From NCBI GenBank assembly GCA_905479395.1, contig CAJQMI010000074.1, positions 1-38,772 of the forward strand: a stretch of DNA of 38,772 nt, read 5' to 3'. Below are positions 12,883 through 28,049 of this stretch, piece by piece. The notes under the pieces are model-generated. The model saw only the letters and a program-made list of their open reading frames with translations, did no database searches and was not told the origin of the DNA. Every line of letters begins with the position of its first letter. Within the stretch, counting starts at the first letter, position 1. This stretch comes from an uncultured Flavobacteriales bacterium (GTDB taxonomy: Bacteria > Bacteroidota > Bacteroidia > Flavobacteriales_D > Sanyastnellaceae). The translations under genes were made by a program, and so were the position numbers.

Positions 12883-13653
12883 TCAATAATTGGTAACACG
12901 CACGGTAATGCGCTGTGCAGCTTCCGCCTCTTCGATGGTTTGTGGCTCACTGATTTCGGATGCTTTTACGGAGTGCTGTTCAATTGCGAGTCGACTCGGG
13001 CCAACACCACTACTGACCAAATATTCATAGACAGCTCGCGCTCGCGCTCTTCCCGACATTTCAGCATCGCGAGATGGCTCTGTGAATCTGAGAGAGCTTT
13101 GGATGGCGACAGCCAACGTTGGATTTACTTCCATAAAGGTGAGAAGAGCCTCAAGGGTGGGAATGGAAGAGAAGTACAGGTCATTCGTGCCGGGGTAGAA
13201 GACGATGGGTTCGAGCTCAACCTTTAAACCTACCGCGAGCGGCTCGAGTCGGAGCGTATCACTCGTCACATCAGGATCGGCGTATATGCGGTCGCTGTAC
13301 ATCATGTAATCGGGTTCAACACATATGCGTGTGTAGCGTCTTTGCGGCTGCAATTGAAGCATTGTGTCCTCGTGTACGCGCAAAGAAATGGGTTTTCGAG
13401 GATTCAGGCCTTCTACCGTGAGCTCAACATCCAACGATTGGTTGCTGTCTGAATCTTGAACCGTCCAGGTTTGTTGAACAGGTTCGTCCGTAACAGCTTT
13501 AGAATCGAGCCAAGGACTCCGTTCGACAGTAAATTGTGCCGTTAGTGCCGTCGAAGAGAGGATGGTGAGGATGCCTAAAATCAGCTTGCACTGAAGAGCA
13601 AGTGCAGAAGCAAAATCAAGGGATTTGGTTGTGGGGTTGGTGTGCATTTTCAA
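12883..13653 (-). CDS. Exported OmpA-like C-terminal domain protein
   Basis: A 256-residue exported protein. A signal peptide (about 20-40, ending STALTAQ) is followed by a beta-rich domain of about 120 residues of unknown type and a C-terminal OmpA-like domain that normally binds peptidoglycan. The domain shows VFYPGTNDLYFSS, a central helix and GRARARAVYEYLVSSGVGPSRL, which correspond to the family's RA-x-x-V-x-x-YL-x-x-x-G-x-x-x-x-R core. The start overlaps the stop of the small CxxC gene (ATGA). It probably anchors the envelope complex to the cell wall, but its partner is not clear. Confidence 0.85.
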   Translation of the reverse strand: MKMHTNPTTKSLDFASALALQCKLILGILTILSSTALTAQFTVERSPWLDSKAVTDEPVQQTWTVQDSDSNQSLDVELTVEGLNPRKPISLRVHEDTMLQLQPQRRYTRICVEPDYMMYSDRIYADPDVTSDTLRLEPLAVGLKVELEPIVFYPGTNDLYFSSIPTLEALLTFMEVNPTLAVAIQSSLRFTEPSRDAEMSGRARARAVYEYLVSSGVGPSRLAIEQHSVKASEISEPQTIEEAEAAQRITVRVTNY

Positions 13654-13904
13654 GAAGCGGAATCAGCCTTCCACTTCTTATAAATTACGAAGAAAAGGGC
13701 GGATAACAAAATGTATGGCACCGCCATCAGGTACAAAATCCCTTTGTTCAAACCAGCCCCCAATCCACCGTCTTTGGCACTGTCCTCGGCCACCGCCTTG
13801 CACATGACACATTGCGCTTCTGCTGGGCTTGCCCATGCAATGAGCACGAAGGTCACGATGAGGGCAAAAGCGATCTTCATTCGGCTTGTATTCTTCCTAT
13901 TCAT
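13650..13904 (-). CDS. Small exported membrane protein with CxxC motif
   Basis: An 84-residue protein with a signal peptide ending ASPAEA. The mature chain would begin QCVMCKA, with Cys32 and Cys35 as a CxxC pair, then a Gly-rich stretch and one transmembrane helix (about 55-76). A good purine-rich site (GAGGG) lies eight bases before the ATG at 13904. It is encoded between DUF420 and the OmpA-like gene at the end of the oxidase cluster, and similar small proteins sit in the same place in other Bacteroidota to my recollection. The CxxC could bind copper or heme or act in thiol exchange, which is inference. Function unknown. Confidence 0.75.
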   Translation of the reverse strand: MNRKNTSRMKIAFALIVTFVLIAWASPAEAQCVMCKAVAEDSAKDGGLGAGLNKGILYLMAVPYILLSALFFVIYKKWKADSAS

Positions 13905-13919
13905 GGCATCCCTCTTGGT

Positions 13920-14459
13920 TTAGTGAGGGTAATAGGGAGAAATCATCAAATACACAATGACTCCAGTGGCCGTTACGTACAGCCAGATGGGCCAGGTGAT
14001 TTTTGCGATTTTGCGATGCTTTTCAACTTGCATTCCCAATCCTCGCACATACGTGAACAAGACCAAAGGAATGATTCCAGTAGACAGCAGGATATGTGAA
14101 ATGAGAATCACGAAATAGACCGTTCGAATCCAGCCCTCGCCTCCAAATTTTGTCGATTCGGTGGTCAAGTGGAAAGCAACATAGCTCACTAAAAATAGCA
14201 TGCTCAGGATCAAAGCTGTCGTGGTAAATGCGCGGTGTACTTTGATGTTTTTGTTCTTGATTGCAACAAACGCACCGATGAGGCAGAGAAAAGCCGTGCC
14301 GTTGAAGATTGCGTTCAGCTTCGGCAGAACATAGAGCGATGCCTTGACTTCATCAGAAAGATTTTCCACAGGTGGGATTAGAAATAGGAGCGCGACTGCT
14401 GCTGGAATTACCACAGCCATCGTCCAAATAAACCGTTTGATGTTGCGTTCGTTTTCCAT
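13920..14459 (-). CDS. DUF420 membrane protein (CtaM/YozB-like)
   Basis: The 179-residue protein has about five membrane helices and matches the DUF420 family by its pattern: PKLNAIFNGTAFLCLIGAF, KVHRAFTTTALILSMLFLVSY and SHILLSTGIIPLVLFTYVRG, with conserved His residues (KVHRA, AFHLT, SHILL). A DUF420 protein, CtaM, is needed for oxidase maturation in Staphylococcus aureus, which agrees with the position here, seven bases after the SCO gene. The exact role in this organism is inferred. Confidence 0.9.
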   Translation of the reverse strand: MENERNIKRFIWTMAVVIPAAVALLFLIPPVENLSDEVKASLYVLPKLNAIFNGTAFLCLIGAFVAIKNKNIKVHRAFTTTALILSMLFLVSYVAFHLTTESTKFGGEGWIRTVYFVILISHILLSTGIIPLVLFTYVRGLGMQVEKHRKIAKITWPIWLYVTATGVIVYLMISPYYPH

Positions 14460-14466
14460 TTGATCT

Positions 14467-15720
14467 TCAAGGCTTTGATTCCGGGGTAATCCAAAGTCGG
14501 TACGTATCCTTCATCAGTTTGTCGACTTCATCTGTGTCTGTGCCATCGTAGTAGCCTCGGATGCGATTTTCCGCATCGATGAGCGCGAAGATATCGCTGT
14601 GGAATATTCCTCCTGCGGCGGTATCACTCTCAAGCGCTGTTAGAAAATATCCGTTGCGAGCCAGGTCAAAGATGTCTTCTTTGTCCCCTGTGAGCATTTC
14701 CCAGATCGCGGGGTTTCGCCCCAGTTTTTGACCATATTGCTGGAGCCTTGCTGGCGTGTCATGTTCAGGATCGACCGAGTGACTCAAAAGCAGAACATCA
14801 TTTTGCATCCCTCGATTGATCAATTGAGCTTGCAGCCTTGCCATTTGACTCGACATGATGGGGCAGATTGTTGGGCAACGCGTGAAGAAAAAATCGACGA
14901 TGCGCAGACGGCCTCCAATATTTCGGTGTGAAAATTCAGAGCTATCTGCAGCCGTTAAGGCAAAAGAAGGGACCGTGTGTTCTGGTGGTCCCAAAATGGG
15001 CAATGGAGGTTCGTCACTGAGCTCTTCAAGAGCCTTTTTCCGCTTGTAAGCGGCCTCGTCCATTTCTTTCTGAAGCAGGGCAATGTCTTCAACAGCATCT
15101 TTGATAGCATCTTCTGAAGCAGCATGATACACTCCTCTCAAGTATCCCTGTTCATCGACCAGCCATAGGGTGGCAATGTTGTTGGGCTCTGCTGCATCTC
15201 GTTGGATCATGAATGACTCCTCGACCAGCGCATCGATGCGGTTTTGATCGCCGGTCAAAAACTGCCACTTTCCAGGAAATCCATTGTAGCGTGTATTCCG
15301 GTCGACATATTTCTTGAGTACTTCTGGCCGGTCGTATGCCGCATCCAGGGTGAAGCAAACTGTCATGATGTCGCTTTCATCTCTGTACCGGAAATTTGGC
15401 CAAAGAAGTTGCTTCGTAAACTGAGCAACATGCGGGGTATTTGTGGGAAAGAAAGCAGCAATCCACACTTTGCCCGCCAGTTCTTCTGAACCGAATGCTT
15501 CTCCGTTTTGGTTGATCAAGGAAAAGGGCTCGACGCGCTGTGCGAGCTCCGACCATTGTTCCGTAGCACCATCAGAAGTGTAGTATGGCAGCGTGTTGAA
15601 ATGATGGTCCCCATCGATGCCAAGGATTAGCAACCCAGTGAGCGGCAGCCCCAGCATGATGCTGAGAAGGTAAACGTATTTCCGGACCGTATTGGTGGCT
15701 TTTTGTTTCACAAGAATCAA
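14467..15720 (-). CDS. Fused double SCO-domain protein, second domain copper-competent
   Basis: SCO proteins deliver copper to the CuA site of cytochrome c oxidase subunit II. This 417-residue protein has one N-terminal membrane anchor (about 15-35) and two thioredoxin-like SCO domains in tandem. The second (about 245-410) is complete, with Cys282 and Cys286 in FFFTRCPTICPIM and His374 in GIFHSDIFAL. The first (about 62-215) follows the same fold pattern (PFSLINQNGEAFGSEELAGK, LWLVDEQGYLRGVY), but FPTNTPHV replaces the CxxxC loop and Asn180/181 stand where the copper His should be. Normal SCO proteins have one domain of about 200 residues. It lies between coxIV and DUF420. Confidence 0.9.
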   Translation of the reverse strand: MILVKQKATNTVRKYVYLLSIMLGLPLTGLLILGIDGDHHFNTLPYYTSDGATEQWSELAQRVEPFSLINQNGEAFGSEELAGKVWIAAFFPTNTPHVAQFTKQLLWPNFRYRDESDIMTVCFTLDAAYDRPEVLKKYVDRNTRYNGFPGKWQFLTGDQNRIDALVEESFMIQRDAAEPNNIATLWLVDEQGYLRGVYHAASEDAIKDAVEDIALLQKEMDEAAYKRKKALEELSDEPPLPILGPPEHTVPSFALTAADSSEFSHRNIGGRLRIVDFFFTRCPTICPIMSSQMARLQAQLINRGMQNDVLLLSHSVDPEHDTPARLQQYGQKLGRNPAIWEMLTGDKEDIFDLARNGYFLTALESDTAAGGIFHSDIFALIDAENRIRGYYDGTDTDEVDKLMKDTYRLWITPESKP

Positions 15721-15759: not shown

Positions 15760-16137
15760 TCATTGAAACAGGGTGGAGTTGCCGAGATGGGCAAATCCTT
15801 CGGTGATTGCTATGAAGAGCAAATAGCCGATGAACATCATGTAGGGAGCGAGTACAACCTTTTTGAGATTGGGTCGCTCATCACCTAAGTGCATAAACAC
15901 CAAAACGATATAGGCTGCCTTGACCAACGTCAAAATCACAAAACTCCACTTGATCATGCTCCAAGTGAAAGTTTCGGCTCGTTTGAAGTAAATCCCCATG
16001 ATGACCTCAACCGTAGTGAGCAAAGTCAAGATGGCGGTCACCTTCCAAACATTTTTGCGAATGGCGGCACCCTCCTCTTCGCTGTGATGAGAATTCAAAG
16101 AGTAGCTATCGTTCACTATGAGGTCGTCGCGTTCCAT
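15760..16137 (-). CDS. Cytochrome c oxidase subunit IV family protein
   Basis: This 125-residue protein has three transmembrane segments (about 30-48, 61-83, 94-113) and matches the bacterial caa3/aa3 oxidase subunit IV family: WKVTAILTLLTTVEVIMGIYF, then VKAAYIVLVFMHLGDERPNLKK. It is a small structural subunit of the oxidase. It sits directly after the CoxIII gene and before the SCO gene, in the usual Bacteroidota order. The N-terminus carries a cytoplasmic acidic stretch. Confidence 0.92.
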   Translation of the reverse strand: MERDDLIVNDSYSLNSHHSEEEGAAIRKNVWKVTAILTLLTTVEVIMGIYFKRAETFTWSMIKWSFVILTLVKAAYIVLVFMHLGDERPNLKKVVLAPYMMFIGYLLFIAITEGFAHLGNSTLFQ

Positions 16138-16171: not shown

Positions 16172-17152
16172 TCAGATGAGGTAGAAAAACGTGAAGACAA
16201 AGACCCAAACAAGATCTACAAAGTGCCAGTAAAGTCCAATTTTCTCGACCATCTCGTAATGCTTGCGCCTTTCGAAAACACCGCGGTAAGCCATGAAGAA
16301 GATGATGATGTTGATGACAACTCCTGAGAGCACGTGAAAACCGTGAAAACCGGTGATGAAGAAGAAAAAGTTAGCGTACGACTGTTGAACGGCGTATTCG
16401 TTGTCATGCATGTTGGCGCCGAAGGAAAAAGACTCGGAGCGAGCATTCCACAATTTCATCGCTTGATCTCCACTCACGTGGGATTCATTTTCGATGTACT
16501 TGTTGATCGTGAGCGCGTGAAGTTCGGCTTCGTGCGTGTGTTCTCCATTTTGGACCAACTTGATGCCATGCTCGCTATCCTGCAATGAGACCATGGGATT
16601 TCCCTCGCTCCATGGCTCTGCCAGGTGGCCAAAGTCATGGTCCATGTAGATTGCGTCTCCCTTGTTCAAATCGAATGTCTGTCCGTCGTCTGATGTGACC
16701 GAAACATTTTCAGCGAGCAAGTACGATCCGCCGCTTCCGTGGATGAAGTGAGACCACTCCCATGCTTGCGAGCCCAAAAAGATGAACCCACCGATTACGG
16801 TGAGACCCAACCATTTTACAACTCCATTTTTATCATTGCGATGCCCTGATTCTACAGCGAGAACCATGGTGACGGATGAAACAATCAAGATGAACGTCAT
16901 CAAAGCCACATAAATCAAAGGGTACTCACCATCCAATCCGGGCAATGAGCGAAATACTTGTTCTCCAATTGGCCAAGCGTCTGGGCTGCTGGCTCGGACA
17001 AATCCGTAGGCGGTCAACAAACCTCCGAACGTCAAGGCATCCGAGACGAGGAAATACCACATCATCATTTTGCCGTAGCTCACGCTAAACGGAGATTGTC
17101 CTCCCCCCCAAAGTACCTCTTTCGAGATCGATTTTGTTGCTTCTCCGCCCAT
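16172..17152 (-). CDS. Cytochrome c oxidase subunit III (second copy)
   Basis: A 326-residue heme-copper oxidase subunit III. It has the family's helices: WYFLVSDALTFGGLLTAYGF, a TFILIVSSVTMVLAV helix, WEWSHFI, FFFFITGFHGFHVLSGV and the C-terminal YWHFVDLVWVFVFTFFYLI. Between helices lies a hydrophilic insertion of about 100 residues (roughly 148-247), rich in Asp, Glu and His, which is much longer than in mitochondrial CoxIII. The gene starts a new transcription unit: a terminator and a -7 box lie just upstream. The catalytic subunits I and II are not in this window. Confidence 0.94.
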   Translation of the reverse strand: MGGEATKSISKEVLWGGGQSPFSVSYGKMMMWYFLVSDALTFGGLLTAYGFVRASSPDAWPIGEQVFRSLPGLDGEYPLIYVALMTFILIVSSVTMVLAVESGHRNDKNGVVKWLGLTVIGGFIFLGSQAWEWSHFIHGSGGSYLLAENVSVTSDDGQTFDLNKGDAIYMDHDFGHLAEPWSEGNPMVSLQDSEHGIKLVQNGEHTHEAELHALTINKYIENESHVSGDQAMKLWNARSESFSFGANMHDNEYAVQQSYANFFFFITGFHGFHVLSGVVINIIIFFMAYRGVFERRKHYEMVEKIGLYWHFVDLVWVFVFTFFYLI

Positions 17153-17267: not shown

Positions 17268-18074
17268 TCAATGGTAGTAGAAGAGGAAGGCAAACAAGTA
17301 AAGCCAAAGCGCTCCCATGAAATGCCAGTAGATGCTGAGGCTTTCGAGCCGTACGACGTCGCCGCTGTGAATGGCGCCATTCAATACGCGTATTCCATTG
17401 ACTATCAGGTATATAAACCCGAATGTAAGGTGCAGGATGTGCACGGCGATCAATGCCCAAAGGTACCCACCACCTGAGTTTGAGGTTCGAGCCACGTCCC
17501 GCGTGATGGGTCGAACCATGAGTTCGTCGTTGGCGGCATAGAATTCTGCACGCTCGGGGCTGTATACAAGTGGAAGGCCGTTCCGGTAGACAACGTAGTC
17601 ATCTCCGTACACTGCAGGGCCCTCCATCATGGATTCTATGCTATTCCAGCGGTAGGTTTCCGCGCCCGACTCATGCTCGCTGATGGTCCATCCCATTCCC
17701 ATTTCGGCCAAGCGTTTCCAACCTTCGGCTTGACTCACAGTGAAGCCAATGCCCGTCACAAGGGTCAATGCCAATCCCACGATGGCGTTGTTTTTCTGCC
17801 CCAATCGCATGGATCGAACAGACCACCAAAGTGCAGCTGAGGAAAGAATGAGCAATGCGTTGGAGACCCAAAATGCTGGAGTTGGAGACACATGCACCCA
17901 AAATTGCCCCATGTTTGAAACGATGTATGCGCTTGTAAACCCTGCAAACAGCATCACAATGGCGAATACAATAAAATACATCAGCATTTTTTTCGTCCGC
18001 TCTCGAATTTTCGGATCTAAGCCTTCAAATACATTGGGCTTCCGAGTGGGTTGTTCTGTTGAATTATCGCTCAT
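17268..18074 (-). CDS. Cytochrome c oxidase subunit III-like protein (first copy)
   Basis: This 268-residue membrane protein is a paralogue of the next CoxIII. It starts MSDNSTEQPTRKPNVFEGLD, with helices at MLMYFIVFAIVMLFAGFTSAY, FWVSNALLILSSAALWW and GLALTLVTGIGFTVSQ, then a hydrophilic segment of about 80 residues and two C-terminal helices containing ALIAVHILHLTFGF and IYWHFMGALWLYLFAFLFYYH. The YWHFM-x-x-LW signature fits subunit III. ATG 18074 is preferred over the longer frame to 18131, which would overlap cyoE. It lies seven bases after the cyoE stop. Whether both copies enter one oxidase cannot be told. Confidence 0.92.
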   Translation of the reverse strand: MSDNSTEQPTRKPNVFEGLDPKIRERTKKMLMYFIVFAIVMLFAGFTSAYIVSNMGQFWVHVSPTPAFWVSNALLILSSAALWWSVRSMRLGQKNNAIVGLALTLVTGIGFTVSQAEGWKRLAEMGMGWTISEHESGAETYRWNSIESMMEGPAVYGDDYVVYRNGLPLVYSPERAEFYAANDELMVRPITRDVARTSNSGGGYLWALIAVHILHLTFGFIYLIVNGIRVLNGAIHSGDVVRLESLSIYWHFMGALWLYLFAFLFYYH

Positions 18075-18081
18075 GGTATCA

Positions 18082-18945
18082 TCAAATCTTATCCAAAACA
18101 AATGCAAGTTGCACGATGGGCAGGTAGGCAAAAGAGGCGAACATCAGGGTTCTGGCATGTTTCATGTCCAAGGTCTGATGAAGCCGGAAGGCAGGCACGG
18201 CGAAAAGCAGCCCGCAGAGAACCGCCACGATCAACGCGATGTTCCCAACCATCGGGTCCCCTGTGGGCAAAGCCCAAGGAAGCAAGGAAGCTGGAATGCA
18301 GAAGAGGGTGTAGACAAATATTTGCCACGCGCTTTGCTTGGTCCTTCCTGCTCGAAATGGGAGCATGAAATAACCCGCTTTCTGATAATCGTCGTGAGCC
18401 AACCATGCGATGGCCCAAAAATGAGGGAATTGCCACATGAATTGAACAGCAAAAAGGGTTCCAGGTTCAATTCCAAAATCACCTGTTGCTGCAACGTAGC
18501 CAATCATTGGTGGCAACGCTCCAGGAATGGCTCCGACAAACACGCTCATGGTGGTCTTCGCTTTGAGTGGTGTGTAAATGAATGCATACGACACCAGCGC
18601 GGTCACGCCGAGCCATCCACTCAATGGATTGAGTCCAAAAAGACAGAAGAGGCCTATTCCGCCTGCAATTACGCTGTATGTGAGCGCTGCTCCGGTACCC
18701 ATCCGACCCGTTGGCAGCGGACGGTTTGAAGTTCGAGTCATGAGTCCGTCGACACGTTTCTCGATGATTTGATTCAATCCATTCGATGCTCCTGTCAATA
18801 GGTAGCCTCCGATTGTGAGCATGAGAAAGCTGCGAATGTCCATGGAGTCAACCGCCATGAACCAGCCCAGTATGGCAGAGACCACAACAAAAAACCCTAG
18901 GCGCATCTTAAAAAGCGAGGCGATGTCTTTGATTCGTTCGTTCAT
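18082..18945 (-). CDS. cyoE: Protoheme IX farnesyltransferase (heme O synthase)
   Basis: The enzyme adds a farnesyl group to heme B to give heme O, the precursor of heme A for the terminal oxidase. It is a 287-residue UbiA-type prenyltransferase with about eight or nine membrane helices. The first Asp-rich motif is N58-QIIEKRV-D66-GLMTRT-SNRP, followed by YTPLKAKT and the second loop region FWAIAWLAHDDYQKAG. It is the first gene of the oxidase cluster. A ctaA-type heme A synthase is not in the window. Confidence 0.96.
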   Translation of the reverse strand: MNERIKDIASLFKMRLGFFVVVSAILGWFMAVDSMDIRSFLMLTIGGYLLTGASNGLNQIIEKRVDGLMTRTSNRPLPTGRMGTGAALTYSVIAGGIGLFCLFGLNPLSGWLGVTALVSYAFIYTPLKAKTTMSVFVGAIPGALPPMIGYVAATGDFGIEPGTLFAVQFMWQFPHFWAIAWLAHDDYQKAGYFMLPFRAGRTKQSAWQIFVYTLFCIPASLLPWALPTGDPMVGNIALIVAVLCGLLFAVPAFRLHQTLDMKHARTLMFASFAYLPIVQLAFVLDKI

Positions 18946-19006: not shown

Positions 19007-20644
19007 TCACCAATTACGCTCCTCAAGCACCCTACGCAGTCGAATTCCTGTCTCGAGCCGCCACCAAGTGGTGCTCATCATGCCCCCGCTTAGGTTATTT
19101 TGCGTGCTGCGCACAAACAACTCTTGCCCCTCTAGCTTGGTAATTTGGTAGCTTACATCCACCCATGTTTGAATCTGATTGATGACATCGGTATTGCCTG
19201 CTTGACCATCCCCTGAATAGAACCATTCCACTCCATAATCGGAAGGTCTGGTGACATAAGAAAGCAACGGATCTGAGCCAATCGACACAGCAGGATCTTT
19301 GCCCAGATCAACCGCTTCGTCCAAAGCTTGCTTTCGCATCAGGGCGCCAAGGTGAAATCGGAATAGGCCTTTTTTCCAAATCACATGTGTCCTGGCTTCT
19401 GCAAAATTGCTGCCTGCAGGATGGGCGAGTGGTTGCCGGTTGTGTGTCCACGATTGAGCGGAGGAAGCGTGCGCATAGGTGTAAGGTCGCACTGCGGTTG
19501 CTTCAAGAACCACATTCCAACGTTCATTGGCACTTCCGTAATGCAAGGAACCAAGTGCCCCCCATTTGTTCGCCCACCACTGCGCGTCAGATCGCAACTC
19601 ACTGATCACGAGCTCATCAAGGAGGACTTGACCGTAAATTCGCCAGCGGCCTGTGGAGGTCTGTATTTCTTTGCTCAATGCGGCTCCTAAGAGAGCATTA
19701 TCGGCAGAACCCAATGCATACTCGGTTGGGCGAAAGGCAATGAATGGAATTGCATACGAAGCTTCAAAACGGGAATTGTAACCGGAATCATTGGCCAAAT
19801 AGCTCACAGCACCAAACAATTCGCCACTCCATCCGCGTCCAAAATCTACTTCGACGAGATGGGCAGCGAACCACGATGGACGCTTGATGGCATACGTTCC
19901 CGGACTGCGATCTTGTGCCCCAATAAAGTCTGAGGGGCTCCCGACTGTTCTGTGGGTGGTGCGTGCCAGTAAATGGGTGTACTGGACACGCCCCGCGTCC
20001 GCGACGAATCTAGCGTATGGAAGTGAAGCAGCTTGGCGATCCAACCAGAGGGACCTCCATCCTTTGCCCCAATGATGTTGGCCCTGGCCAACTTCGATCT
20101 GAATGGACGGAGAGATGATGGCAGTCACATGCCCGATTGCACGGGCAAGCGCAACATCGCTCGGATTTGGATTCCAGGACCAACCAATTCCATCCCAGGT
20201 TGCCCATTGCCATGCTTGGTTCCAATCGGATTCGCTTACGTTGCTCAGCCGCCAATGGTCGAGCATTCCGCTCCAGGTAAATCGTTTGTAATGCCCCGCC
20301 AATTCCACCCCTGTTTTCCAGCCAAGTCCTTCAGCGAAGGATCGCGCAGTAGCATTGCCGAACGCTCGGACATTGGGGCTGTGCTGTGCGGAAGCAAATG
20401 CCCTAATCCCAATGTGTGAGGCCCCATACCAGTGCGTGGTATCGGAAGGACTTTCCCAATCTGTTCGAGAAGCTAGAGGCCAGATGGAGGGGCAAACGTC
20501 GGCAATTGGGCCAATTTTCCAGCGCTCGTTTTCGAGTCCCTGACTCCAAGTATTGCTAGTACTGCACAAGAACAGCAGCAACAAAAGGATGGAAGGGGCT
20601 AAAATTTCAGCAATCGAGGGTTTGAAAAGAAACCTTGGAAGCAT
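19007..20644 (-). CDS. RemB/Wzi-like outer membrane beta-barrel protein
   Basis: This 545-residue outer-membrane protein has a signal peptide (about 12-35) and a long run of alternating strands. The segment GQGQHHWGKGWRSLWLDRQA (about 183-202) matches the signature shared by capsule assembly protein Wzi and flavobacterial gliding protein RemB. The later stretch IYGQVLLDELVISE, WWANKWGALGSLHYG and VRPYTYAHASS with HNRQPLAHPAGSNF is the RemB-like pattern. RemB is linked to gliding motility and surface polysaccharide movement. It follows the WecA-like gene by nine bases, which suggests a glycan-linked role here, though this is inference. Confidence 0.8.
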   Translation of the reverse strand: MLPRFLFKPSIAEILAPSILLLLLFLCSTSNTWSQGLENERWKIGPIADVCPSIWPLASRTDWESPSDTTHWYGASHIGIRAFASAQHSPNVRAFGNATARSFAEGLGWKTGVELAGHYKRFTWSGMLDHWRLSNVSESDWNQAWQWATWDGIGWSWNPNPSDVALARAIGHVTAIISPSIQIEVGQGQHHWGKGWRSLWLDRQAASLPYARFVADAGRVQYTHLLARTTHRTVGSPSDFIGAQDRSPGTYAIKRPSWFAAHLVEVDFGRGWSGELFGAVSYLANDSGYNSRFEASYAIPFIAFRPTEYALGSADNALLGAALSKEIQTSTGRWRIYGQVLLDELVISELRSDAQWWANKWGALGSLHYGSANERWNVVLEATAVRPYTYAHASSAQSWTHNRQPLAHPAGSNFAEARTHVIWKKGLFRFHLGALMRKQALDEAVDLGKDPAVSIGSDPLLSYVTRPSDYGVEWFYSGDGQAGNTDVINQIQTWVDVSYQITKLEGQELFVRSTQNNLSGGMMSTTWWRLETGIRLRRVLEERNW

Positions 20645-21927: not shown

Positions 21928-23382
21928 TCACATCCCGTTTGAAACAGCAGCATTTATGCCGATGCTCAGCCACCGGTAATTGCTCACGAGTTGATTTCGT
22001 GCTTCTGCCATTCCAATAGTGCCATAAAGCTCCAGAGGCCAGGTGGGATGGATGGTATAGCTGGTTTGAAGTTGGCCCCACGATGCGGCATTGTTTTGTT
22101 CGGCGCGCATGGCCACTCGCCACCGTGGGGATAGCTCAAAAGTGCCCTCTATCCTCAGGGATTCATTCCAAATCCCCTGCACATCGATGCCTGCTTGTTG
22201 AAGTGATGCTAGCCGCGGTCCTTCGATTGAAGGGGTCAGTTCCTCAAATTCAAAACAAGTGGAACACACTGCCTCAGATTTTTGGTATGCCTCAACCCGC
22301 AATTCCAATCGGTTTGTTTTCAAATGTATCCCTGCAACAGATGTCAGGGGCTGGATGGACCGGTAAGGGTCAAGTGTTCCACCTACCCGCCTCGATTGAC
22401 CACCGAATCCAATGGATTGTTGGAGGTAGAACAGCCCCTTTCCTGTTCGAAGAAAGCGGAAGTGAATTTGGTTTTCAATGCCAATAACATGCCGCTTGGC
22501 ATGGTACGATTCGCCTTCATGGTAGCCCAATGCCTCCCATCCTGCACTTGCAATGGAAGCCCCTTTTTCGCGGACGAATTGATAAGCACTTTGGACGAGC
22601 CATCGGGGTTTTATTTCGCGGATGTGCTGCACGGTCAGGACATGCGATCGATTCAGCAACGATTCAGCAGTTTCCCCAAGAGGTCCGCGTTCATCCGACA
22701 TCCATTGCGATATGGAAACTTCGGTCCGGTTCTGTTTTTGCTCAAAACCAACACGGGCATATGGGGCAGGAGCTGCAGTTTTTGAAATCAAGGCACTCGC
22801 GCGACCTGCCCCAAAGTGCATCGCATCAATTCCCGTGTCCATGCTCCAGAGGCCGTTGCTCCAACCCGTCCACCCGCGCACCCGGGACGCATCATAATAA
22901 GCTTGCTCAGCGGTGTTCCAGCCATTGTTGCGTCCGAGTTTCGAGCGGCCCCAGCCCGGAATCCTTTGTTGAACGGCCCAAAGTCCGAGCAAAGGATCAG
23001 CTACCCCTTGTCGTTCAAGAAGCTCGCCTCCGATGTGAAATCGTTCATCCAGTTCCGCTTGAAATCTTGCCCCGCGGATGTTGTCCCAAATGATCAAGTC
23101 TGCTTGTCCGTCGTCTTCGAATTGCACGGTTCCCGCCATCACCTGAACGATGGGGTCCACCACGACTTTATTTTGTTCCTCTGAAAAATCCAACAGGTGT
23201 TGTTCCCCAACACGCTCCCACCAAGTTGAGGCATTCGATGGTGGTGTGATGTGGGTGCGCAAAGCCGGAATGTGACCGGTGCTGTCTTGCATGACTTGGG
23301 CCTCGGCGGAGGCGCTGAGGAAGATGACCCAGCCAAATCGTAGAGCACTCAAAGCATTTGATTTGACAAAGGGTTTCTTCAT
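21928..23382 (-). CDS. Second Wzi/RemB-like outer membrane protein
   Basis: A 484-residue exported protein (signal peptide ending ASAEAQ) with a predicted beta-barrel. The N-terminal part has [15 protein letters not shown] and an [23 protein letters not shown] hairpin. The segment [23 protein letters not shown] (about 184-206) resembles the Wzi/RemB signature in which a G-x-x-x-x-F-G-x-G-x-x-S run precedes a polar loop. Similarity is weaker than for the gene at 19007. A CSTC pair occurs near residue 375. It overlaps the fcl stop by four bases, so it is probably translated with GDP-fucose synthase. A role in surface glycan assembly is inferred. Confidence 0.6.
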
Positions 23383-25287: not shown

Positions 25288-26442
25288 TTACAATTTCCGG
25301 CCTTTCCATTTGACCTGCCCCCTTAGCAGATGCCACCAAGATCCCCACACGAGCGCTGCATACCGCCAAGGAAATCTGATGAGGTCCAGGCGTTTCAAGG
25401 GCAATGCATACCGATCCACCGCCGTGCTCACCAATCGTCGATCCATCATGCCCTTTGCTGCAAAGAGTGCCAAGATTCCAGCGATGCCTCTGCTGCTGCA
25501 GGCCACGCCACTGATGATGGCCAAAATCAAGGCGAAATGAACAGCTGCAACAATCCACCCAGTCGTTGTGGTTTCACGATCCGAACCATCGACCGTTTTC
25601 GACGCCCATCGCGCACGCTGCTGCCAAAGTTCGGACCACCCTTGAACGGGCTGAGTCGTGACAAATGCGCTACGCTGTGAGTTCCAAATGATTTTTCCAT
25701 TGTTGTTTTTGATGGCCAATAGCGCATAAGCGTCGTCGCCGGAGGCTTGGTTCTCATGCAATTCGTTGGCGGGATAGGTGGAGGTTCGATAGACGCTGTT
25801 TGCGCCGCTTCCCATGGCCAGTGTTCCAGAACTTACTCCCCCTTCAATCCAAGCCATGAGACATCCATACTCGAGTGACTGGAAGCGCTGCCACTGGGAG
25901 TTTGGTTTGGCTTCGATTCGAACAGTTCCGAGAATGGCTTGTGTTTCCTTGTCATCCCCGGATTGGTTGTTTTGAATGCATTGCATCATCGACTTCGCCC
26001 AGTCGGCTCCGATTCGTACATCGGCATCCAAAGTTGCCATCCATGGCGTTTTGACCTTCCCGTGTGCTTGACGCAAAGCTGCTTTTTTTCCGTGGGCTTG
26101 GTTGGAGATGCATTTGACGCCTGCAGTTTTGGCTATCCCAATGGTTGCGTCTGAGCTGTGGTCGTCCACAACCAGTATCTCGATGGGACAGGTTTGCTTA
26201 GCGAGATCACTGAGCAGAGAAGGGAGATTTTCGGCTTCATTTCGGCACGGAATCACCACCGTGATCCATTTCGAAACGTCCGAACGAATCAGCTCTTCTT
26301 GATTTGGTTTTGGCGCCTGACTTAGGCGTTTTGTCCACAGGTGAATTTGACGACCATAGGCCAAAAGACAGAGAGCGTTGATCCCCAATACTCCCCAGAA
26401 AATCATTTCTGGCCACAAGTCCCATGCTATCTCAATGTTCAT
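25288..26442 (-). CDS. Membrane-anchored glycosyltransferase family 2
   Basis: This 384-residue protein has an N-terminal membrane helix (about 12-30) and a GT-A domain. It reads VVIPCRNEAENLPSLLSDLAK (start of the nucleotide-binding fold), VVDDHSSD, the metal-binding TLDADVRIGADW, and the QQRARWASKT segment corresponding to the processive GT2 QxxRW motif. Two or three hydrophobic segments follow at the C-terminus. It is expected to work on the cytoplasmic face. Its start overlaps the flippase-like gene by 11 bases, so they are co-transcribed. The donor and product are unknown. Confidence 0.92.
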   Translation of the reverse strand: MNIEIAWDLWPEMIFWGVLGINALCLLAYGRQIHLWTKRLSQAPKPNQEELIRSDVSKWITVVIPCRNEAENLPSLLSDLAKQTCPIEILVVDDHSSDATIGIAKTAGVKCISNQAHGKKAALRQAHGKVKTPWMATLDADVRIGADWAKSMMQCIQNNQSGDDKETQAILGTVRIEAKPNSQWQRFQSLEYGCLMAWIEGGVSSGTLAMGSGANSVYRTSTYPANELHENQASGDDAYALLAIKNNNGKIIWNSQRSAFVTTQPVQGWSELWQQRARWASKTVDGSDRETTTTGWIVAAVHFALILAIISGVACSSRGIAGILALFAAKGMMDRRLVSTAVDRYALPLKRLDLIRFPWRYAALVWGSWWHLLRGQVKWKGRKL

Positions 26443-27427
26443 CGGCTGTGTTCATTGAATCCGAGCCCACGACTGCTCCGATGATTGCCCCAATAATTGC
26501 GGGAATCACCAAATTTAATGCCCAAATAAAGAATGTTCCGGCGATCAGAGGCACGACCATTTCAGGCGCCGGTTGCAGCACCATCACAATGAGCGCTTCT
26601 CTGACTCCCATTTCTGCGAGTGCAGCAGTGGGGATGATCATATTTCCCCAGTACACCAGCGCGATGGCTGGGAACAATTCCGAAGGATTTGAAAAACCAA
26701 AGGCGATAAGGCCAAGTGCAAACTGGCTTGTGAACACGGCATAGCGTATGGCACTGAGCGCAATGATCAAGGGCAATTGCGGCCGAACGGATTTCAAGGC
26801 ATCCGGACTTTTTGATTCAAGCCAAACAGGGAGAGGAAAGCTTTTTTGCAGCCGAAGGAGCACGCTCTGACCGAATTGAGCATTGGCCCAGCCGAGGGTC
26901 CACCATGCAGCGGCTCCTGCGCAGGCAATCACTGGAATCAACCAGAGGGTTTGGGTTCCTGCAGCGATGGAGAGTGTGTTTAAAAACCATGCAGTGGCTA
27001 AGGCTCCAAAACTCAAGGTCATACCACCCTGTGCCCAAGCACTCCAACCAAAGGATCGAAGTCCGTGGGTGCGTATTTCGGATGGCAGCATCGCCACTCG
27101 AGCCAATGCATCGCCGGTGCGATTTGGTGTCATGAAGCCAAATGTTGACCCTACCAAGACTTCGCGATAGGACTGACCTATGAAACGATTGGTTCGCTGC
27201 AAGAGCAGGTGCCATTTCAATGCTTCGATTCCCCAATTCAAGGGCAACAGGACGGCTGCAAGCACGAGTGGCCAAGCTTGTTTTGGCATGAGTTGCGCCC
27301 ACGCAATTGATTCCGTGTTTAGAGCCTCATGTTGCGCTACCTGCGCAATGATAACCGTCAGCGCGAGCAAGGAGGTGATCCATGCGAGCCATTTGCGCAA
27401 TTGCGGTTGATAATGGGGCGATTTCAT
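26432..27427 (-). CDS. Flippase-like integral membrane protein (LPG synthase TM family)
   Basis: A 331-residue polytopic protein of the UPF0104/lysylphosphatidylglycerol synthase membrane domain family, with about eight helices. The family pattern is seen in LNWGIEALKWHLLLQ, GSTFGFMTPNRTGDALARVAMLP and PTAALAEMGVREALIV. Related proteins help move or modify glycolipids, but no function is proven for this group. The frame is open to 27739, but the extra 104 residues would run into ruvC and look non-protein-like. ATG 27427 fits the divergent promoter. It is followed by an overlapping GT2 gene. Confidence 0.85.
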   Translation of the reverse strand: MKSPHYQPQLRKWLAWITSLLALTVIIAQVAQHEALNTESIAWAQLMPKQAWPLVLAAVLLPLNWGIEALKWHLLLQRTNRFIGQSYREVLVGSTFGFMTPNRTGDALARVAMLPSEIRTHGLRSFGWSAWAQGGMTLSFGALATAWFLNTLSIAAGTQTLWLIPVIACAGAAAWWTLGWANAQFGQSVLLRLQKSFPLPVWLESKSPDALKSVRPQLPLIIALSAIRYAVFTSQFALGLIAFGFSNPSELFPAIALVYWGNMIIPTAALAEMGVREALIVMVLQPAPEMVVPLIAGTFFIWALNLVIPAIIGAIIGAVVGSDSMNTADEH

Positions 27428-27446
27428 CGGTTGGGGGACGCTTTTC

Positions 27447-27454
27447 CAAATGTA
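27447..27454 (-). promoter_or_regulatory. Putative promoter -7 box of the flippase-like unit
   Basis: Minus-strand TACATTTG matches TAnnTTTG exactly. A TTG (27477-27475) lies 20 bases upstream on that strand as -33 candidate. It overlaps the ruvC -7 box on the other strand by two bases (27453-27454). Confidence 0.5.
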
Positions 27455-27460
27455 CCTTCG
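27453..27460 (+). promoter_or_regulatory. Putative promoter -7 box of ruvC
   Basis: TACCTTCG matches TAnnTTTG with one mismatch. TTG at 27431-27433 is exactly 19 bases upstream. It ends seven bases before the ruvC ATG, so the mRNA would have almost no leader. Confidence 0.45.
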
Positions 27461-27467
27461 TTGAGCG

Positions 27468-28049
27468 ATGTCACCAACCCCGAAGCCAAAACCCGTCGAA
27501 CGAATCATTCTCGGCATTGATCCCGGCACCACCATCATGGGATACGGTGTGATCTGCGTGCGCGGCAAATCGGTTGAGTTGGTCGAAATGGGCGCCTTGC
27601 ACCTTTCGAAGTACAAAGACCACGCGGTTAAGTTGAAGCGAATTTTTGATCGATGTTCAGCATTGATTGATGCGCATGCTCCCGACCACATGGCGGTGGA
27701 AGCGCCTTTTTTCGGGAAAAACGTCCAGTCCATGCTCAAATTGGGTAGGGCTCAAGGTGTGGCCTTGGCTGCTGCTCTCTCGAAGGATATTCCGATTGCG
27801 GAATACGCACCACGGAAGGTCAAGCAATCGATCACGGGTTCTGGGGCGGCAAGCAAGGAGCAAGTGGCTGCAATGGTGGCACGTACACTCAGCATTTCAG
27901 TGGCAGATTTGCCCAAAGAACTGGACGCTACAGACGGATTAGCAGTGGCGTTGTGCCATCATTTTCAATTGTCTTCACCTCGCATGCAGGCGGGTTATAG
28001 CGGGTGGAAAGCATTCATCGCTGACCAAGGTGAACGGGTTAGTTCTTGA
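27468..28049 (+). CDS. ruvC: Crossover junction endodeoxyribonuclease RuvC
   Basis: RuvC is the Holliday junction resolvase that cuts four-way junctions with RuvAB. At 193 residues it is slightly longer than usual through N- and C-terminal tails. The four acidic catalytic residues can be placed: Asp18 (GIDPGT), Glu78 (AVEAPFFGKN), and Asp153 and Asp156 (DATDGLAVALCHH). KLGRAQGVAL and APRKVKQSITGSG motifs also fit. The start ATG is 40 bases from the divergent flippase-like gene. A strong terminator follows about 90 bases after the stop. Confidence 0.97.
   Translation: MSPTPKPKPVERIILGIDPGTTIMGYGVICVRGKSVELVEMGALHLSKYKDHAVKLKRIFDRCSALIDAHAPDHMAVEAPFFGKNVQSMLKLGRAQGVALAAALSKDIPIAEYAPRKVKQSITGSGAASKEQVAAMVARTLSISVADLPKELDATDGLAVALCHHFQLSSPRMQAGYSGWKAFIADQGERVSS

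Follow-up and report, generated by a model that had tools for sequence, protein, structure and literature searches.

The window analysed here is the whole stretch of 38,772 nucleotides of contig CAJQMI010000074.1, from an uncultured Flavobacteriales bacterium of the Sanyastnellaceae. It carries a co-directional row of genes, from a UbiA family gene through two COX3-like subunits, COX4_pro, a fused SCO gene and DUF420 to a protein of 84 aa (Table 1). Judged by its family and place, the UbiA member is a probable haem o synthase of the CtaB/CyoE type. Between 14467 and 15720 the minus strand holds a frame of 417 aa, and frame 1 of the plus strand contains several stops. The first codon of the 417-aa frame is TTG, although the GTG at codon 4 (15711-15709) is the likelier start, since AGGG lies upstream of it and it aligns with the ATG of some relatives. 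Pfam SCO1-SenC matches the protein twice (2.8e-38 overall), covering residues 252-386 and, more weakly yet above the cut-off of 22.8 bits, residues 64-177. An initial annotation of this DNA had read the frame as one polypeptide with two SCO-type domains; this holds, with both parts above the cut-off and the gene on the minus strand. An NCBIfam scan of the same protein gave no match.

Table 1. The fused SCO gene, its parts and its co-directional neighbours (positions in the window)
Feature	Position	Strand	Remark
Fused pseudo-SCO + SCO gene	14467..15720	-	417 aa
Predicted N-terminal TM anchor (hydrophobic helix, residues 6-36), then conserved H39-x-F41	15613..15705	-	helix in models, anchor profile
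Pseudo-SCO domain (residues 60-218), without CxxxC, Asn181 at the His place	15067..15543	-	SCO fold (predicted)
Linker (residues 219-247): end of long helix 203-234, then Pro-rich stretch	14980..15066	-	
Active-type SCO domain (residues 248-414)	14479..14979	-	Cys282, Cys286, His374
DUF420 membrane protein, conserved next gene	13920..14459	-	
84-aa protein, hydrophobic N-terminus, CVMC motif	13650..13904	-	without Pfam match
COX4_pro (oxidase subunit IV), conserved preceding gene	15760..16137	-	
COX3-like subunit	16172..17152	-	
Second COX3-like subunit	17268..18131	-	frame overlaps next gene, start uncertain
UbiA family gene	18082..18945	-	family and place

Many SCOs are linked to cytochrome oxidase genes, and the fusion shares this feature, with two COX3 genes, COX4, UbiA and DUF420 as neighbours. 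The arrangement recurs in relatives: 100 of the 101 loci counted in the window's family have COX4 directly before the N part and 97 have DUF420 downstream, the remaining loci being those at a contig or fetch end or with no match there. The 84-aa CVMC protein (13650-13904) also recurs after DUF420, at most loci of the family survey and at about half of the His-less loci of other families described below. Elsewhere in the window, among glycosyltransferase and transport genes, three long frames on the minus strand (19007-20644, 21928-23382 and 26432-27739) found nothing in Pfam at E 0.01.

Fold and copper ligands of the two domains

The C-terminal domain has the SCO fold together with the CxxxC motif and distal His of the SCO family. 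Scored separately in the genome, this part reaches 90.8 bits against Pfam SCO1-SenC, and its nearest solved structures are SCO proteins both by sequence and by predicted fold (4hde, Z 22.1; BsSco, Z 20.1). The codons of the copper ligands lie at 14875-14877 (Cys282), 14863-14865 (Cys286) and 14599-14601 (His374). These three residues, already named as ligands in the initial annotation, are invariant in 25 aligned fusions; across the C parts of the family both Cys are present in 97 of 97 and the His in 96, with the remaining one showing a gap at the His column. The CoxB encoded in the same genome carries the pattern CxxxCxxxHxxM, which we take to be the CuA signature, and the C-terminal SCO would bind copper through Cys282, Cys286 and His374 and serve this site.

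The N-terminal domain keeps the fold and has lost the ligands, as had been proposed: FPTNTPHV stands at the place of CxxxC and Asn181 at that of the His. Scored separately in the genome, it still matches Pfam SCO1-SenC with 45.6 bits (E 1e-11), and a further scoring gave 44.6 bits. In a whole-protein AlphaFold2 model (pTM 0.70) both parts have a thioredoxin-like arrangement. The N part folded alone, using 23 related sequences (pLDDT 90.9), has its best solved matches in 4hde (Z 21.4, rmsd 2.1 over 162 residues) and BsSco (Z 19.7). Places 1-14 of the structure ranking are taken by Sco entries and two entries for aq_2194, a putative electron transport protein that is presumably Sco-like, and the following row drops to Z 14.8. 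The likeness to SCO structures is thus far beyond chance, and as far as prediction can settle the matter the N part adopts the SCO fold and its copper site is dead.

The loss extends throughout the family. Both active-site Cys are absent from all 101 aligned N parts, so that the domain has neither the CxxxC plus distal His of SCO ligands nor the loop Cys pair of a TlpA/ResA-type thiol reductase. At the His column the alignment gives Asn in 87, His in 6 and other residues in 8; a few split members of the family (see below) still carry His there. Redox sensing, one of the roles that had been suggested for this domain, is unlikely in the family for the same reason, the commonest Cys (122) being present in only 70 of the 101. 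T102, L105, L106 and N109, in the helix after the former copper loop, are near-invariant (99-100% of 101), and at this helix the C part conserves Q292 and R295 instead. R195 and Y198 are invariant too, but they have R388 and Y391 as their counterparts in the C part and so are not specific to the N domain.

It is conceivable that new ligands in the N domain bind copper or haem, to be passed on to the live domain or to subunit I (CuB). His39 is invariant (101/101), and His97 (69), Cys122 (70) and His129 (59) are frequent; moreover, a search for PCuAC in the organism's own genome, which is about 90% complete, found no such second copper donor. Such a site is very unlikely, however, given that no set of two or three Cys, His or Met residues is conserved across the 101 aligned N parts besides His39, and His39 itself does not point to a new site because an H-x-F after the anchor also occurs in ordinary TM-type SCOs.

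Nor does the N domain look like a duplicate in decay. Within the window's genus (20 genomes), mean identity is 73% for the N part vs 71% for the C part, and median dN/dS is 0.085 vs 0.058 (37 and 29 usable pairs). In four further genera, two split and two fused, both domains have dN/dS of 0.04-0.11. Only pairs with dS below 3 were counted, 2 to 47 per value, and with dS near saturation these ratios are rough and only the approximate equality of the two parts is to be trusted. On this measure the N part is under purifying selection roughly like that on the live part, and a decaying pseudogene is rejected on this ground. The loss of all three ligands in the window's protein is what would be expected of a functionless duplicate, but the constraint close to that of the live domain, the open frames in 56 fused and 41 split loci and the family-wide retention make that explanation extremely improbable.

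Fused and split pairs in the family and the order

All 60 genomes in a search of relatives, the organism's own among them, match either the protein or one domain of it. Several genera of the window's family encode the two parts in neighbouring genes with overlapping frames. A profile of the N part (A1) was run on 114 genomes of the family and matched 103 at 136 bits or more, two of them as fragments (G076, G077); the latter were left out, giving the 101 loci counted here. Eleven of the 114 have no full match to the dead copy. Two of these, G064 and G097, are at least 92% complete, and G064 has a piece of the dead copy at a contig edge. The 101 loci comprise 56 fused pairs, 41 pairs of neighbouring genes and 4 undecided cases, three of which reach a contig end; in the fourth (G060) the live frame is in two pieces. 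Fused members occur in genera g1 (that of the window), g3, g9, g10, g13 and g14. Fused frames in 56 genomes rule out a sequencing or assembly artefact. Four split first-copy proteins gave at most weak NCBIfam matches, far under the cut-off. The initial annotation had called for the same fusion to be sought in other Bacteroidota; the pair is indeed family-wide, but the picture of a fusion was too narrow, as it often consists of two genes. The 15 named relatives of the fusion are Flavobacteriales or Bacteroidetes MAGs, with one from Crocinitomicaceae (MED692), and a distant Planctomycetales locus has a single SCO.

Outside the family A1 scores are lower. Full-length members inside it score 186-377 bits; outside it the top scores are 136.7 bits in a search of 399 genomes of the order and 120.8 bits in one of 296 genomes of the phylum, both of which contained family members. 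The top matches outside, in G153 and G562, are ordinary single SCOs. The profile favours family members, having been built from them, and seven His-less genes of other families receive just 21-66 bits. Over the genomes searched, these scores reject the idea that this is the phylum's ordinary SCO form. Six cox-cluster SCO sites outside the order, all from one class (L101, L102, L103, L104, L110, L113), likewise hold a single SCO. Neither of the two outcomes that the initial annotation named as refuting its reading, an N-terminal part unlike thioredoxin or an ordinary form throughout the phylum, was observed.

A second SCO-like gene sits between COX4 and the live SCO in other families of the order, filling the same slot. 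At 47 such loci there is no His at the ligand column (47/47), two Cys are present in 46, COX4 lies before the pair in 46 and DUF420 after it in 45. Forty of these loci come from a profile search of 249 genomes of the order and seven had been seen earlier; seven of the 47 had built the search profile. Picked by profile match or by an adjoining SCO, the 47 show presence by family and not an unbiased frequency. A His lies one column further along in members of g42 and in G038, and a Tyr takes that place in members of g46 and g57. In these three genera, which belong to family f3, the His-less gene is itself fused to the live SCO in 14 of 15 fetched loci, with open frames of 398-406 aa; the fifteenth reaches a contig end, and only part of the genomes of the fused f3 genera was fetched. 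Gene order and fusion plan are like those of the window's fusion, but the first domain has retained two Cys, in many cases farther apart than in CxxxC, and the fusion is of separate origin. In further lineages of the order the slot is filled by one TM-anchored SCO (e.g. G037, G039, G041-G043). A single SCO in the cox slot of G145 (L197, f4) has lost both Cys (RSSTNGP) and kept the His region (VLHSN); it is the sole Cys-less case among 12 single SCOs of this slot.

A tree of 73 live domains requires at least 3 changes between the fused and the split state, and an AU test rejects grouping the 24 sampled fusions under a single origin (p 2.8e-127). The trees were built on representatives, with the broken live gene of G049 left out, and the 34 rows of the window's family form one side of a branch with support of 100. 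Two split pairs, in G115 (L164) and G118 (L167), belong to genus g10, which is otherwise fused where seen, and their live SCOs have a lipoprotein-like start. In the tree they are sisters of fused g10 members, which may reflect either one re-split or two fusions within the family. Split pairs within a mostly fused genus indicate that the covalent link is not essential.

The origin of the first copies is less sharply resolved. The dead copies and the His-less copies of other families, whose genes form long branches, stand apart in one tree and together in a smaller one with support of about 10, and a duplication internal to the family is not rejected (AU p 0.27). One old duplication giving rise to both is favoured, on account of the shared slot and TM anchor. 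The live SCO frame is in two pieces in G049 (f3) and G060 (f1), as is the His-less frame in G138 (f10) (loci L065, L267 and L119); these breaks may be real or sequencing errors.

Membrane anchors and a proposed role of the dead copy

A profile of the anchor region (N-part residues 1-59) scores a median of 24.6 bits (10.1-33.5) on the 12 single SCOs, 11.0 bits (2.8-29.8) on 30 His-less copies, and 1.7 (n=41) and 0.15 (n=30) on two sets of lipoprotein-type SCOs, where the highest value is 7.3. By these scores, the anchor of the dead copy is the one that ordinary SCOs have in this slot. SCO proteins are anchored in the membrane with the domain in the periplasm; for the window's protein the hydrophobic helix at residues 6-36 predicts the anchor part of this layout. 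The core domain separates the groups weakly, with medians of 80 for the singles, 65 and 72 for the lipoprotein-type SCOs and 24 for the His-less copies. The split live SCOs start differently. A hydrophobic start followed by Cys is found in 40 of 41 of them in the family and 30 of 30 elsewhere, vs 1 of 12 single SCOs and 3 of 101 N parts; this looser pattern is not clean by itself, as it is also present in 17 of the 47 His-less first copies. A stricter, 4-letter pattern occurs in 32 of 41 and 27 of 30 of the split live SCOs. For the 19-residue stretch of highest hydrophobicity, medians are about 2.5-2.7 in first copies and single SCOs and 1.6-1.7 in split live SCOs, a contrast expected between TM helices and signal peptides. 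On these simple sequence patterns, a split live SCO resembles a lipoprotein, and the partner a TM-anchored protein. The linkers of 9 fusions of the family and 8 of the second family contain no signal peptide or lipoprotein signal, and in the linker of the window's protein (219-247) neither a signal peptide nor a lipobox was seen.

The explanation we prefer, at a probability of about 0.6, gives the dead SCO, as a membrane-anchored partner, the task of holding or positioning the live SCO during CuA assembly of cytochrome oxidase. The two-domain protein would then be an assembly factor for cytochrome c oxidase. Its N domain probably descends from the TM SCO that ordinarily fills the slot, whose anchor it carries by sequence, and with its copper site gone it would act as a membrane-bound docking or scaffold subunit that handles no copper and positions the live domain. 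In many relatives the partners are separate neighbours: the dead one has a TM anchor, and the live one resembles a lipoprotein. They were fused in at least two lineages, upon which the lipoprotein signal would be needless. We infer from the data above that the domains touch, that the dead one positions the live one and that the window's protein has a CuA role. That similar neighbours were fused separately argues for a physical pair and, taken with the similar constraint on both domains, makes a merely decaying domain unlikely. Against the physical pair counts that co-transcribed neighbours may become fused even if their products never touch. Of the roles put forward in the initial annotation, that of holding the active domain is the one now favoured; to the picture drawn there are added the dead copy as a conserved partner and a like pair joined independently in a second family.

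A simpler possibility is that the N domain is a mere anchor or spacer, a dead fold without a specific partner, and that fusion served to re-tether a lipoprotein-type live copy. In both families, the inspected fusions have no lipoprotein signal and retain the first copy's TM helix, just as this would predict, and the loss of Cys and His would be explained. A separate dead copy, however, cannot tether the live SCO unless it binds it, yet it is kept beside the live gene at 41 split loci, is about as constrained as the live copy and has near-invariant residues of its own (T102, L105, L106, N109). We consider the anchor or spacer role rather unlikely.

A wider form of the positioning model would apply to the order as a whole, and here our confidence falls a little short of even. 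Flavobacteriales would possess an obligate two-subunit SCO for CuA assembly, made up of a TM-anchored, His-less pseudo-SCO (in the window's family also Cys-less) and a live lipoprotein SCO. The copy with both the ancestral slot and the ancestral anchor would have become a platform without copper while the other copy took over the copper work, and the pair would have been frozen into one chain at least twice.

Relation to known SCO systems

Sco is described, in excerpts of PMC9145763 and PMC7558416, as a small protein with a CXXXCXnH motif and one TM segment or a lipid anchor. Compared with the SCO/SenC/PrrC family (PF02630; BsSco, human SCO1/SCO2, ScoI), the C domain of the window's protein has the same fold, CxxxC, distal His and place in a cox cluster, and the N domain has the same fold and a significant family match; the protein differs in having two SCO domains per chain, the first without any ligand. 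Human SCO1 and SCO2 are paralogues that divide the work of CuA assembly between them, and both keep CxxxC and His, whereas the pair described here has one dead copy and also occurs in fused form.

Another precedent for two thioredoxin-fold proteins acting on one CoxB, one of them without a copper role, is the TlpA-ScoI system of Bradyrhizobium, in which a membrane-anchored reductase, TlpA, reduces ScoI as well as CoxII, as reported in an excerpt of PMC6696091. By analogy with TlpA/ScoI or SCO2/SCO1, the first copy might be a thiol reductase working on CoxB or on the live SCO, and the second might deliver the copper. The Cys-keeping first copies of other families resemble this system: two Cys are retained in 46 of 47 and the ligand His in none. 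In the window's family, however, both active-site Cys are missing in 101 of 101, so that thiol reduction cannot be the mechanism there, and unlike TlpA the N domain of the window's protein ranks SCO structures first by fold. As an account of the pair this division of labour is therefore quite unlikely, although thiol reduction may be the ancestral job of the first copy.

How SCO proteins share out thiol reduction, copper delivery and CoxII docking is still argued. Here a copy with neither copper ligands nor a thiol pair is nevertheless kept, and in the window's family joined to a working copy; if it is needed at all, the need must be for binding or positioning. This makes docking by SCO open to testing in isolation, and the separate fusions predict a heterodimer in the split species. 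Among the matches listed, titles and abstract openings in the openly licensed literature contain no description of a dead SCO partner or an SCO-SCO fusion; an earlier description may exist in the subscription literature, genome-wide SCO surveys included.

Two further loci of the window's genome deserve mention. The CoxB gene (L199:1357-2820, minus strand) encodes a long His-rich insert (HGHGGHGHDHDHSDHDHSD...) ahead of the CuA domain; as no PCuAC was found in this genome, the insert might buffer copper. A second, ordinary SCO lies at L001:1312-1995 (plus strand), outside the cox cluster and downstream of what by eye is an amidohydrolase-like frame; it keeps CxxxC and His and has, also by eye, a TM-like start.
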